Assembly (NCBI GenBank): GCA_021298085.1
Contig: JAJTDE010000024.1
Coordinates: 1 to 38,809 of the forward strand
DNA: 38,809 nucleotides
Source: Rubrivivax sp.
GTDB taxonomy: Bacteria > Pseudomonadota > Gammaproteobacteria > Burkholderiales > Burkholderiaceae_C
Direction of reading: 5' to 3'
Positions 1,390 through 37,592 of the stretch are shown here, in pieces. The translations under genes were made by a program, and so were the position numbers. Below the pieces are notes generated by a model that saw nothing but the letters and a program-made list of their open reading frames with translations, was not told the DNA's origin and did not search any database. The first letter of the stretch is position 1. Every line of letters begins with the position of its first letter.

Positions 1390-2871
1390 TCAGGTGCCCA
1401 GTGCCCGCACGATGGCGTCCCGGCACACACTCATCAGGCCGTCAGGCAGCAGGCCGAAAGCCAGCACCGCCACGCCGTTGAGCGCCAGCAGCGCCGATAC
1501 GCCCTGGCTGCGCACGGGCGCGGGATGGCCCGTGGGCTCGTCGAAATACATGACCTTGACCACCCGCAGGTAGTAGAAGGCACCCACCAGGCTCAGCAGC
1601 ACGGCCACCACGGCCAGCACGATGTAGCTGGTGACGTTGGTCGTCACCAGGGCCTGCAGCACGGCCAGCTTGCCGTAGAAGCCCACCATCGGCGGCACAC
1701 CGGCCAGCGAGAACATGAAGACCGCCATCACCCCCGCCAGCCAGGGTGCGCGCTTGGCCAGGCCGGCAAAATCCTGAATCTCTTCCGATTCAAAACCTTC
1801 GCGCGACAGGAACAGGATCAGCCCGAAGGTGCCCAGCGTGGTCAGCACGTAGGTGACCATGTAGAACATCGCCGAGCTGTAGGCGTTGGCGGCCGACAGC
1901 GTGTTGCCGCTGACCACACCGGCGCTGAGGCCCAGCACCACAAAGCCCATCTGCGCAATCGTCGAATAGGCCAGCATGCGCTTGAGGTTGGTCTGCGCAA
2001 TGGCGGCCAGGTTGCCCACCACCAGCGAGGCCACCCCCAGCACGATCAGCATGCGCTGCCAATCCACCGCCAAGCCCAGCATGCCTTCGACCAGGATGCG
2101 GATGGTGATGGCAAAGGCTGCCAGCTTGGGCGCCGCGCCGATCAGCATCGTCACCACCGTGGGGGCGCCGTGGTAGACGTCAGGCACCCACATGTGGAAT
2201 GGTGCGGCACCCAGCTTGAAGGCCAGGCCGGCCACCATGAAGACGGTGCCCAGCACCAGCACTTCCTTGTTGATGGTGCCCTTGGCGATCTGCTCGAAGA
2301 CCTTGGGAATCTCCAGCGAGCCGGTGGCGCCGTACATCATGGACATGCCGTAGAGCAGGAAGCCGCTGGCCAGCGCGCCCAGCACAAAGTACTTCATCGC
2401 CGCTTCGGTGGCCACGGCGTGGTCACGCCTGAGGGCCGTCAGCGCATACAGCGACAAGCTCATCACTTCCAGGCCCAGGTAAACCACCAGGAAGTGGTTG
2501 GCCGAGCACATCACCGAGATGCCCAGGTAGGAAAACAGCGTCAGGGTGAAGAACTCGCCCTTGAGCATGTCGCGCGACGCCAGGTAGGGCTGCGCATAGG
2601 CAATGGTGATCAGCGTGGCAAAGGCCGCGCACGCGGCCAGCAGGTGGCCCATCGGGTCGGTCACCACCAGGCCCTGCATGGCGTACAGCGTCAGGCCGCC
2701 CTGCAGGTACATCAGGTGCACCACGCCGACCACAAACAGGGTGCCTTGTGTCAGCCAGAAGGTCAGGCGACGGGCGGGGTCGGTGATGTAGAGGTCGACG
2801 ATGGCGATGACACAGGTCATCCCCAGCAGGACGATCTCGGGGTAGATGGCGAGCCAGTTCATGGACTGCAT
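1390..2871 (-). CDS. nuoN: NADH-quinone oxidoreductase subunit N
   Basis: This 493-residue, highly hydrophobic protein is a membrane-arm subunit of complex I and one of three antiporter-like subunits thought to move protons. The signature PFHMWVPDVYHGAPTVVT and the following APKLAAF lysine region match the Mrp-antiporter core. About 14 membrane helices are expected. The first ATG (2871) has a GGAG about 10 bases upstream; a second ATG three codons on (2862) is possible. It is the last nuo gene, 25 bases after nuoM. Confidence 0.97.
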   Translation of the reverse strand: MQSMNWLAIYPEIVLLGMTCVIAIVDLYITDPARRLTFWLTQGTLFVVGVVHLMYLQGGLTLYAMQGLVVTDPMGHLLAACAAFATLITIAYAQPYLASRDMLKGEFFTLTLFSYLGISVMCSANHFLVVYLGLEVMSLSLYALTALRRDHAVATEAAMKYFVLGALASGFLLYGMSMMYGATGSLEIPKVFEQIAKGTINKEVLVLGTVFMVAGLAFKLGAAPFHMWVPDVYHGAPTVVTMLIGAAPKLAAFAITIRILVEGMLGLAVDWQRMLIVLGVASLVVGNLAAIAQTNLKRMLAYSTIAQMGFVVLGLSAGVVSGNTLSAANAYSSAMFYMVTYVLTTLGTFGLILFLSREGFESEEIQDFAGLAKRAPWLAGVMAVFMFSLAGVPPMVGFYGKLAVLQALVTTNVTSYIVLAVVAVLLSLVGAFYYLRVVKVMYFDEPTGHPAPVRSQGVSALLALNGVAVLAFGLLPDGLMSVCRDAIVRALGT

Positions 2872-21811: not shown

Positions 21812-22993
21812 TCAGCGGCCCAGCGCCTGCCGCAGGCGCAGCAGGCCAGCATCCAGACGGGCAGCCTCGCGCGAGGCAAAACACCAGCGCAACCAGCCCT
21901 CGCCTTCCGGCCCGAAGGCCACACCCGGGGCCAGCCCCAGGCCATGGTCACGCACCAGTTGCTTGGCAAAGGCCAGTGAATCGGGCTGCCCTTCCACGGC
22001 AAAGAAGGCGTACATGCCGCCGTCCGGCACGGCCACGCGGATGCCGGGGATGGCCTGCAGGCCACCCACCAGCTGGTCACGGCGTTGCTGCATCTGCGCC
22101 TGCAAGGCGGGCACAAAGCCTTGGGCGAGCTGCAGCGCGGCCTCACCCGCACGCTGCACAAACACGGGCGCACACGAACTGCTGAACTCGATCAGCTTGG
22201 CGGCCTGATCGGCCAGGCCTTCGGGCAGGACCAGCCAGCCCAGCCGCCAGCCCGTCATCAGGAAGCTCTTCGAGAAGCTGTGGGCCACGATGACGCGGTC
22301 CTGCGGCTCGGCGATATCCAGAAAGCTGGGCGCACAGCCACTGGCCGAAGGCGCGTAGTAAAGCCGCTCATAGACCTCGTCGGCCACGATCCAGGTGCCG
22401 GTGCGGCGGCAGTGGTCCAGCAGGGTCTGCTGCTCCGCACGCGACAAGGTCCAGCCCGTCGGGTTGTTGGGGGCGTTGAGCAGCAGCACACGTGTGTGCG
22501 GCGTCACGGCGTCCAGCGTTCGCTGCAGGTCCAGCGTCCAGCGCCCGGTGCCCGGTTCCACGGTCAGCGGCAAGCGCTTGACCACACCCCCGAGCACCGC
22601 CGGCTGCGCCGTCAGGTTGGGCCACACCGGCGTGACCGCCAGCACCTCGTCACCCGCATCCACCAGCAGCTGCATCGCCAGCATCAGCGCACTGACCCCC
22701 GACGAGGTCACCGCCAGGCGTGCGGGCGACACCGCGGGGTGCAGGGAAGCCAGATAACCCGCCAGCGCCTCGCGCAGGCTGGCCAGGCCCAGGTTGTGCG
22801 AATAGAAGGTCTCGCCCGCCGCCAGAGACTGGGCCGCCGCGTCGCGGATAGGCTGCGGCGTGACTTCGTCGCTCTCGCCGAACCAGAAGGCCAGCACGTC
22901 GCTGCGGCCCATCGCGGCGTTGGCCACCTCACGGATGCGGGACCCAGGAAGCGCCTGAACGGCGGAACGGATACGGGGATCGGTCACGGTCAT
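21812..22993 (-). CDS. Pyridoxal-phosphate aminotransferase, class I/II
   Basis: This 393-residue fold-type I enzyme resembles the aspartate aminotransferase Ib group. The PLP lysine is about K242 in [25 protein letters not shown] (about N177) and DEVYERL (about D205, Y208) supply the cofactor contacts, and the C-terminal substrate arginine lies in [14 protein letters not shown]. The substrate cannot be named. Its ATG overlaps the tsaD stop by 4 bases, so the two are translationally coupled. Confidence 0.9.
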
Positions 22994-24024
22994 ACCTCAG
23001 CCAAGGGCCATCGGGGGGCCACATCAAACGAACGGGCCGCATCCGGCGCGGCCAGGCCAGCATCCACACGCATGGCCGCCGCCAGCGCGATCATCGCGCC
23101 GTTGTCGGTGCACAGCTCCAGCTCCGGGTAGTGCACACGGATGCGCCGGCGGGCACAGGCCTCGTCCAGACGTTCCCGCAGCCGCCGGTTGGCACCCACG
23201 CCACCTGCCACGACCAGGCGTGTCAGCCCGGTCTGCTTCAGCGCCTTCAGGCTCTTGGCCACCAGCACATCCACGATGGCGGCCTGCGTGGCGGCTGCCA
23301 GGTCAGCGCGCTGCTGCCCGGAAGGCGACGGGCCAAACCGCCGGAACGCAGTCGCCACCGCCGTCTTCAGGCCCGCAAAGGAAAAGTCCAGGTTGTCGGC
23401 ATGCAGCAGCGGCCGCGGCAAGGCCACCGCGTCCTCCGCGCCCTGCGTGGCCAGGCGCGACAGCGCGGGCCCACCCGGGTAACCCAAGCCCAGCAGCTTG
23501 GCCGACTTGTCAAACGCTTCGCCGGCGGCGTCGTCAATGGTCTCGCCCAGCAGGGTGTAGCGCCCCACCCCATCGACCCGCATCAGTTGGGTGTGCCCAC
23601 CTGAGACCAGCAAGGCCAGGAAAGGGAACTCGGGTGGATCGGCCGACAGGAAGGGGGTCAGCAGGTGGCCCTCGAGGTGATGCACCGCCAGCGCCGGCTT
23701 GCCCAGGGCGGCCGCCAGGGCCACCGCAAAGCCCGCACCGACCAGCAATGCACCCGCCAGCCCAGGCCCGCGGGTGTAGGCCACGAGGTCAATGTCCTGG
23801 CGCGCCAGGCCCGCCTGGGCCAGCACCGTCTCGCACAAGGGGACGATGCGGCGGATGTGGTCTCGCGAGGCCAGCTCCGGCACCACACCGCCAAAGGCTT
23901 CATGCATGTCCGCCTGGCTGTGCAGCGCGTGGGCCAGCAGGCGCGGCACACGGCCTGCGCCCAGGCTCTGCACGACCGCCACGCCCGTCTCGTCGCAGGA
24001 AGACTCAATGCCAAGCACATTCAT
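22990..24024 (-). CDS. tsaD: tRNA N6-adenosine threonylcarbamoyltransferase
   Basis: This 344-residue ASKHA-fold protein (formerly Gcp/YgjD) transfers threonylcarbamoyl to A37 of ANN-decoding tRNAs together with TsaB and TsaE. The N-terminal [17 protein letters not shown], the metal-binding HHLEGH (H116, H120), [10 protein letters not shown] and [13 protein letters not shown] are all intact. It is coupled to the aminotransferase. Its start codon lies inside an NtrC-like dyad (24014-24030). A GAATATTC palindrome at 24043-24050 sits where a tsaD -10 could be. The common neighbour rpsU is not present upstream. Confidence 0.97.
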
Positions 24025-24180: not shown

Positions 24181-24197
24181 TTGGCACAGTGCTTGCG
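24181..24197 (+). promoter_or_regulatory. Sigma-54 (RpoN) promoter, -24/-12 element
   Basis: TTGGCACAGTGCTTGCG matches the RpoN consensus YTGGCACG-N4-TTGCW at all ten core bases (TGGCAC, TTGC), with the required GG-N10-GC spacing (GG 24183-24184, GC 24195-24196). The predicted start is near 24205-24209. A 5-bp inverted repeat CCAAC/GTTGG (24171-24184) overlaps the -24 half and could be an operator. No coding sequence follows on this strand before the terminator at 24300. Confidence 0.7.
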
Positions 24198-24205
24198 AGA
24201 GCAGA

Positions 24206-24333
24206 ACCGACGCCAGCGTCCGGCGTCGGTCTATCTCCTCAGTGGATATTCGGGGGCGCTGCGAAACACTTCGGTGCTTTTGTCAGCTGGCTTGCCCGGC
24301 CCCGGCATCGAAAGGTGCTGGGGTTCTTTTTTT
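24206..24333 (+). ncRNA. Putative sigma-54-dependent small RNA
   Basis: The predicted RNA of about 128 nt runs from the sigma-54 start region to the terminator in the tsaD-fdx spacer. It begins with a 9-bp hairpin (ACCGACGCC/GGCGTCGGT, 24206-24214 and 24222-24230). An unpaired CU-rich stretch CTATCTCCTCAG (24231-24242) follows, containing CUCC, which could mask Shine-Dalgarno sequences. Next is a small CAC-UUCG-GUG hairpin followed by UUUU (24267-24281), then the terminator with a U-rich tail typical of Hfq-dependent RNAs. No open reading frame with a ribosome-binding site is visible. It lies antisense to any transcript running past fdx. I do not recognise a known RNA family. The end points are estimates. 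Confidence 0.55.
24300..24333 (+). terminator. Rho-independent terminator of the putative sRNA
   Basis: An 8-bp stem (CCCCGGCA/TGCTGGGG with one G-U pair; arms 24300-24307 and 24316-24323) with an 8-nt loop is followed directly by TTCTTTTTTT on the plus strand. The T-run lies only on this strand, so it is oriented against the isc operon and tsaD and needs a plus-strand transcript to make sense. Confidence 0.85.
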
Positions 24334-24369: not shown

Positions 24370-24711
24370 TCAACCGTGCTTTTCCCGTGCGTGGTTGATC
24401 GAATACTTCGGGATCTCGATCGTCACGTCCTGGTCGCTCAGGATGGCCTGGCACGACAGGCGGGAGGTGGGCGTCAGGCCCCAGGCCCGGTCCAGCAGGT
24501 CCTCCTCGGATTCGTCCATCTCGCCCAAGGACGCAAAGCCCGCCTTCACCACCACATGGCAGGTGGTGCACGCGCAGCTCAGCTCGCAGGCGTGTTCAAT
24601 CTCGATGTCGTTGTCCAGCAGCGCCTCGCAGATCGAGGTGCCCCGCGGGGCCTGGATTTCGTCACCCAGCGGGCAGTAGTCAGGGTGGGGAAGGATCTTG
24701 ATGATCGGCAC
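24370..24711 (-). CDS. fdx: ISC-system 2Fe-2S ferredoxin
   Basis: This 113-residue adrenodoxin-type ferredoxin is thought to supply electrons to cluster assembly on IscU/IscS. Ligands C42, C48, C51 and C87 coincide in numbering with E. coli Fdx; the extra C46 lies within HACELSCACTTCH. It is the last gene of the isc run, 21 bases after hscA. No iscX follows. Beyond the stop, the minus strand has only the 9-bp hairpin at 24206-24230 as a possible end signal. Confidence 0.97.
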   Translation of the reverse strand: MPIIKILPHPDYCPLGDEIQAPRGTSICEALLDNDIEIEHACELSCACTTCHVVVKAGFASLGEMDESEEDLLDRAWGLTPTSRLSCQAILSDQDVTIEIPKYSINHAREKHG

Positions 24712-37396: not shown

Positions 37397-37402
37397 GGTC
37401 TC

Positions 37403-37580
37403 GTCCGCTGCGTCTTGCAGGTCTATATTTCCCTGAACCGATGCTCATTGAGCAAGGGCTTGGAACATCGCCCGGCAGGTGTGATCATCTCGCGTCAGAT
37501 GAACCCGAAGCCATGCTGACCTCGCCCACCTGGATCTTCGCTGAGGGTTCAGGAACTCGGCCTGTGGGGCGCGGCGGACA
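37403..37580 (+). ncRNA. ssrS: 6S RNA
   Basis: This RNA of about 178 nt sequesters sigma-70 RNA polymerase by mimicking an open promoter. Its ends pair over 12 bp (37403-37414 with 37568-37579, two G-U pairs). The 5' half has CCCTGAACCGAT (compare E. coli CCCTGAGCCGAT). The 3' half has GGGTTCAGG, then GGCCTG and GCGGCGG, matching the E. coli 3' strand. The position after zapA is the conserved one. The 3' end is estimated from the stem. Confidence 0.88.
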
Positions 37581-37592
37581 CCTTCACGCCCC

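Follow-up and report, generated by a model that had tools for sequence, protein, structure and literature searches.

A predicted sigma-54-dependent small RNA linked to nitrate-uptake genes in a family of Burkholderiales

Several small RNAs (sRNAs) are driven by sigma-54, including GlmY/GlmZ, CrcZ, and the Qrr RNAs, and NrsZ of Pseudomonas aeruginosa is an NtrC/RpoN-dependent sRNA. The RNA that we describe here would have sigma-54 in common with the former group, whose activators, structures, and seeds are different (a comparison made via Rfam scans only). It is likened to NrsZ by description only: both would be sRNAs of the NtrC/RpoN type, but they differ in genus and locus, and NrsZ is larger.

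GlnZ of Enterobacteriaceae is released from the glnA 3' untranslated region (3'UTR) by RNase E, according to PMC9731577. As portrayed there, this sRNA is tied to a gene of nitrogen assimilation, works when nitrogen is limiting, and has a conserved seed, and in these respects it resembles our proposal. The present RNA differs in being preceded by a separate sigma-54 core, and the likening to GlnZ is by description only. The glnA 3'UTR location is not shared either, since the neighbours in our DNA are tsaD and fdx, and those found with our probes in relatives are nrtC, tsaD, and fdx.

A further likeness is to RF02278, the Betaproteobacteria toxic small RNA family (ncS27, S17S, bdhR1), which likewise occurs in Burkholderiales and has a CU-rich strand with UCUCCUC upstream of a hairpin and a terminator. 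Pairing at ribosome-binding sites is a reported mode of action of S17 (PMC11722255) and a proposed one of ncS27 (PMC5688073), and S17 is transcribed from a sigma-A promoter (PMC11722255). The present RNA differs in scoring below the family, in its extra 5' hairpin, in its sigma-54 core, and in its linkage to nrt genes, and where RF02278 has a two-hairpin body, it has three helices, of which the first is 5'-terminal. By analogy, it may act like the RF02278 family, of which it is no member by score.

We read the locus as encoding a trans-acting sRNA that is transcribed from a sigma-54 promoter, probably driven by NtrC, and that blocks ribosome-binding sites under nitrogen limitation. Judging from sequence comparisons, we give this reading a probability of about 0.74.

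The tsaD–fdx spacer

The window (the whole stretch of DNA that was analysed, 38,809 nucleotides) contains a spacer of 345 bases between tsaD and fdx, both of which are on the minus strand, as the preliminary description had said. The tsaD products of two relatives exceed the TIGR03723 TsaD cut-off, and the fdx product of the relative locus L121 exceeds the TIGR02007 cut-off. The features of the region are as follows.

22990–24024, minus strand: tsaD, the divergent upstream neighbour, named by eye and by match to relatives.
24182–24196, plus strand: sigma-54 -24/-12 promoter core (TGGCAC-N5-TTGC), within one mismatch in 53/53 curated loci and exact in 49.
24206–24333, plus strand: predicted small RNA of about 126–128 nt, with a fold z of -4.4 and a match to covariance model R1.
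24206–24230, plus strand: 5' hairpin of the window fold, with double changes in 6/6 modelled pairs.
24230–24242, plus strand: CU-rich single strand UCUAUCUCCUCAG, the likely seed, in which UCUCCUC is kept in 52/53 loci.
24251–24298, plus strand: branched stem of the window copy, where relatives have a shorter hairpin, often AGGGC/GCCCU.
24298–24333, plus strand: intrinsic terminator with a T tract, from the window scan, with double changes in 10/11 modelled pairs.
24370–24711, minus strand: fdx (ISC ferredoxin), the convergent downstream neighbour, named by eye and by match to relatives.

The ten-base RpoN core and the Rho-independent terminator of the preliminary description are both present on the plus strand, the latter as a stem at 24298–24325 followed by CTTTTTTT. 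The predicted transcription start (+1) lies near 24208, the 12th base past the -12 C of TTGC (the usual spacing), so the 9-bp hairpin of the window fold is about flush with the 5' end of the RNA, where it had been placed before. The predicted RNA (24206–24333) has a folding energy of -60.9 kcal/mol, and model R1 matches the window at 24207–24332 with 68.4 bits (the window copy being one of the 14 seeds of the model). The CU-rich strand is the complement of a Shine-Dalgarno-type sequence; in the predicted folds, it is partly paired in the window copy and unpaired in the relative locus L063. A UUCG-capped hairpin followed by UUUU, which had been counted as part of the architecture, is indeed present in the window but absent from all other alignment rows. 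It sits in an insertion of about 35 nt peculiar to the window copy (14-sequence alignment) and, by this comparison, is no conserved part of the RNA.

Taken alone, the window proves no gene. The chance expectation of a sigma-54 core is 0.25 per window (one is present in 25/100 shuffles), and that of a terminator is 0.4 in the 801 scanned bases, which contain one. Core and terminator are therefore near chance expectation, and the evidence for the RNA is comparative.

Relatives and conservation

When 61 genomes were searched at the DNA level, three of the same genus proved to retain segments around 24182–24242, at 85%, 77%, and 74%; the search also recovered the fdx end of many more. The loci share a common plan: a sigma-54 core, a 5' hairpin, a strand such as UGUCUAUCUCCUCAGCAGGGC, a small hairpin, and a terminator. 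The first covariance model was made from 14 transcripts with the promoter excluded, and the later models likewise contain no promoter. At E 0.001, the model matches 45/81 same-genus genomes (with E no higher than 3e-11 in 37), and 44/81, some of them incomplete, are without a strong match. Beyond the genus, matches occur in 77/299 family genomes (many weak) and, at E 0.001 and with Infernal's stricter filters, in 31/399 order genomes and 16/185 class genomes, the window's own genome being included each time.

We examined the 38 hits of the order and class searches that came with a locus (L121–L158), minus six that are cut at contig ends (L143, L147, L152, L154, L156, and L158). Among the readable ones, core and seed occur together only in L121, which is from the window's own family, and the RNA was not found outside that family. 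Four loci (L122, L135, L141, and L146) have a CU strand without a sigma-54 core, and the remaining readable loci look like terminators.

Our curated set holds 53 loci, i.e., 30 from the window's genus and 23 from 14 other genera (using the tool's genus labels), so the relatives span 15 genera of one family; the RNA is present in Rubrivivax gelatinosus and Aquincola tertiaricarbonis. A. tertiaricarbonis RN12 reportedly carries four rpoN paralogues, rpoN1 being the one studied (PMC9850573). The curated set comes from 58 loci that were read, weaker genus and family hits that had no locus being left aside, with L121 added and six removed: L075 (a near copy of L074), L118 and L120 (false, no seed), and L115, L116, and L119 (another RNA with UUGUCUCCUC and no sigma-54 core). 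This second RNA type occurs near position 1501 of L115, L116, L119, L135, and L141, where UUGUCUCCUC or a similar sequence is accompanied by a hairpin and a terminator, again with no sigma-54 core, and it is RF02278-like by eye.

A divergent copy in L014 (about 1583–1680, minus strand; outside the 53) has the core TGGCACACCGTTTGC and the strand GTCTCCTCGG. It scores only 21.7 bits, a sign that distant members escape the model. When genome contigs were scanned for TGTCTATCTCCTCAGCAGG, 32 stretches turned up, 28 of which have a core within 60 nt upstream; the others are L048, where the core has altered spacing, and three stretches from unrelated bacteria without a core.

When a 29-nt interval upstream is searched, the core is within one mismatch in every curated locus (30/30 in the genus, 23/23 outside it), with four loci deviating by one base. 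In the background of 20,490 windows of this kind, 0.08% have it exactly and 0.99% are one off (1.07% within one mismatch). An earlier scan with a wider interval had found the core in 48/52 loci.

The stems are conserved as well. In the 52-locus alignment, which was fitted to the model, leans toward structure, and contains related sequences, 96.1% of cells are paired and double changes occur in 18/22 pairs, a result reached by 0/500 shuffles. These pairs are divided among the helices as 6/6 (5' hairpin), 2/5 (middle), and 10/11 (terminator), i.e., two of the three stems covary well. The 5' hairpin persists while its arms differ strongly between genera. For the 44 nt around it, the 23 loci outside the genus have a mean z of -2.6 (range -0.1 to -4.6), and 18/23 single folds lie at 5% or less of shuffles; these loci came from models that include the hairpin, so this test is alignment-free but selection-aided.

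A peptide-coding reading of the transcript was ranked low. A frame of at least 10 codons lies wholly inside the transcript in only 7/53 loci, a start position is shared by at most two, and lengths in the frame test are distributed over all three remainders of 3 (53 loci); no small reading frame is common to the 53 loci. Of the earlier claim that no reading frame lies between core and terminator, the part that concerns the transcript agrees with this comparison, by which it is non-coding, but some long mechanical reading frames do run across the tsaD–fdx spacer.

The preliminary description had proposed that relatives be compared for covarying promoter, hairpins, and terminator and that Rfam models be searched. 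Both comparisons favour its central claim of a small RNA outside Rfam with a sigma-54 promoter, which is strongly supported by conservation, the position of the core being fixed and the stems covarying. No Rfam family reaches its gathering score at the RNA in searches at gathering and permissive thresholds. One candidate, BjrC68, was rejected: it reaches 21.1 bits in L063 (gathering score 39, E 0.0017), and neither L105 nor the window has this match. A search of the literature, whose scope largely left out subscription papers and which is no proof of novelty, found no description of the RNA. Elsewhere in the window, at 37402–37581 on the plus strand, there is a 6S RNA with 53.4 bits, over the gathering score.

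The preliminary description had named relatives with the same gene order as a test. Among the first 30 loci, 12 with adjacent tsaD and fdx retain the RNA (including the window copy and L020, whose promoter spacing is altered), and six tsaD–fdx-adjacent loci are without it (L004, L007, L008, L018, L024, and L025). Only 0–74 bp are left between the genes in those six, so the entire RNA stretch is gone. L021, where nrtC adjoins fdx and the RNA is absent, is a counter-case.

The RNA could instead be a member or recent branch of RF02278 (ncS27, S17, bdhR1) that gained a sigma-54 promoter and an extra 5' hairpin. In its favour are the common UCUCCUC strand with its hairpin and terminator and the ribosome-binding-site pairing reported or proposed for RNAs of that family. 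The RF02278 model, however, gives only 15.0 and 14.2 bits in two relatives (gathering score 50) and leaves the window unlisted even at E 10, and a separate RF02278 RNA exists elsewhere in the same genome; we consider such a branch unlikely. The two RF02278-type loci of that genome, both with UGUCUCCUCC, are L159 (C321), at 69.5 bits and above the cut-off, and L160 (C280), at 43.8 bits and below it.

Gene context and the activator

Gene context was determined by tblastn with seven probes, in loci that reach only some 1.5 kb to either side, and it brings out a link to nitrate-uptake genes that was invisible to the preliminary description. Upstream, the nearest of the probed genes is nrtC in 25/53 loci, tsaD in 24/53, and none in 4/53, and fdx is downstream in 43/53. 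nrtC is on the same strand as the RNA (L089 has it at 55% identity only), and in 20 of the 25 nrtC loci the seed lies within 130 nt after it. NrtC, part of a nitrate ABC transporter, is over the TIGR01184 cut-off in 6/6 tested loci, and NrtB is over the TIGR01183 cut-off in the one locus tested. A NasT-like gene with an ANTAR domain is upstream of the nrt genes in 4/4 clusters tested by Pfam (L192, L193, L199, and L201). nrtA was confirmed by Pfam in L192 and assigned by position elsewhere, and the upstream frame of L198 has no NCBIfam match. For example, the order in L192 is tsaD, ANTAR gene, nrtA, nrtB, nrtC, sRNA, fdx.

A second sigma-54 core lies 3.2–3.4 kb upstream of the seed, where nrtA begins, in 11/11 scanned clusters; 12 were fetched, and L197 was omitted because its seed variant escaped the anchor. 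By eye, the leader that follows this core (L192–L196 and L198–L203) has its own hairpin and T tract, and most clusters have a GGTCAANGGCGAYC-like element and later a GGACG..GGCGTCC..GACGCC-T tract. It is probably a NasT/ANTAR antitermination leader.

The window's genome has one nrtC over the cut-off, on another contig of 9 kb, followed by what is by eye a nitrite-reductase-type reductase, and nrt genes are absent from the spot in the window. On the nrtC strand of that contig, no sigma-54 core and no CU strand were found. In the lineage of the window, the nrt genes were apparently lost from this spot and the RNA was kept, a direction of change that we infer over an insertion in the other lineages.

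As a sign of the activator, we looked for GCAC-N7-GTGC, which we take to be the NtrC dyad. All 11 copies in 52 loci stand no more than 350 bases from the RNA, with none in the 121 kb that remain, and in 4/11 clusters a copy lies 35–98 nt upstream of the nrtA core. Against this, the window's genome has 281 copies vs 149 of the reversed control. With one mismatch allowed, the dyad rate is 1.8 per kb near the RNA vs 1.4 elsewhere, and dyads with a spacing of 12 are also frequent near the RNA (17 vs 11 elsewhere). By eye, three of the 11 dyads run into the start of tsaD and one into the stop of fdx, and the rows are related. The dyads are suggestive of NtrC, i.e., modest and not decisive evidence.

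A different activator (e.g., a sensor of another signal) could drive the sigma-54 RNA in a role outside nitrogen control. The window's genome has one rpoN and one ntrC over the cut-off, and there are six ntrC-like matches at E 1e-60, which would leave room for such a regulator, as would the modest dyads and the 24 loci where tsaD and no nrt gene is nearest. Set against this are the adjacent nitrate-uptake genes, for which all the scanned clusters show a separate sigma-54 core, and we think a non-NtrC activator improbable.

The closeness of the seed to nrtC on the same strand would also suit an RNA that is the 3'UTR of the nrtABC operon or its remnant, i.e., a processed 3' product whose terminator serves the operon, as GlnZ is a nitrogen RNA from a 3'UTR (PMC9731577). 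This is very unlikely, as the RNA has its own sigma-54 core, whose distance from the seed hardly varies and which is present also in loci with divergent tsaD as the closest probed gene upstream.

The ANTAR gene in all four Pfam-tested clusters raises the idea that the RNA binds NasT, the ANTAR regulator, as a decoy, in the way that some sRNAs bind EutV. The loops vary in length and letters with no shared hexaloop by eye (14-sequence alignment), and conservation is strongest in a CU-rich stretch that is mostly single-stranded, leaving the decoy with a very slim chance. Mere chance co-occurrence of core, hairpins, and terminator, for which the near-expectation counts of core and terminator within the window alone would allow, is refuted by conservation and covariation over 53 loci of 15 genera and has a negligible probability.

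Proposed action and significance

The promoter, the hairpins, the conserved seed, the terminator, and the gene context can be read from the aligned loci; the targets of the proposed trans-acting sRNA are a matter of prediction. The 11-base complement of the seed shows no recurring target: it occurs 11 times outside the RNA gene in 81 genomes, about two of these at plausible start sites. The shorter pattern TGAGGAGA-N3-10-ATG has 153 matches in 10 genomes, of which 140 were taken further; the 13 left out are one overlapping row, the RNA gene in G195, and 11 in G103. Frames under 50 aa result from 20 of the 140 candidates. Few groups recur, by eye, each in two genera: cyanase, a putative exported protein, and a thiolase-like pair. 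Further groups are four tripartite-transporter-type binding proteins in two genomes and two pairs, each within one genome. We treat these protein groups as candidate targets, i.e., as leads only. In L284 and L321, from two genera, a cyanase-like gene (cynS by eye) has a similar start region, TGAGGAGAATCGCATG; this gene is a possible target of the seed.

The RNA has a U tail and a CU-rich strand, and Hfq binding is putative. In the mechanism that we propose, transcription, NtrC, Hfq, repression, and targets are steps that we infer. The RNA of several related genera closes a cassette, nasT(ANTAR)-nrtA-nrtB-nrtC-sRNA, whose nrt genes have their own sigma-54 core; in the window's lineage, this spot is without the nrt genes, and the RNA has remained with its promoter. 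Nitrogen limitation would lead an activator, most likely NtrC, to open the promoter. The RNA would then be protected by its 5' hairpin and terminator and probably held by Hfq, and its exposed UCUAUCUCCUCAG would pair with Shine-Dalgarno regions of target mRNAs, blocking their translation. The outcome would be a metabolism adjusted during the induction of nitrate uptake.

More tentatively, and at rather less than even odds, the RNA may be a nitrogen-status sRNA throughout the family. Its nitrate-assimilation cassette would then have two sigma-54 promoters, one serving the uptake genes and the other an anti-Shine-Dalgarno RNA. Through a seed of the kind found in the growth-attenuating RF02278 RNAs, this RNA would switch off competing uptake and carbon–nitrogen metabolism, and it would have been kept after the uptake genes left.

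On comparative grounds, what was a single observation in the window is now an RNA family without a fitting Rfam entry. If our reading is true, nitrogen control has a post-transcriptional arm in the Burkholderiales family to which Rubrivivax, Aquincola, and Azohydromonas belong. The RNA is also an example of how an sRNA may persist after its accompanying operon has gone.
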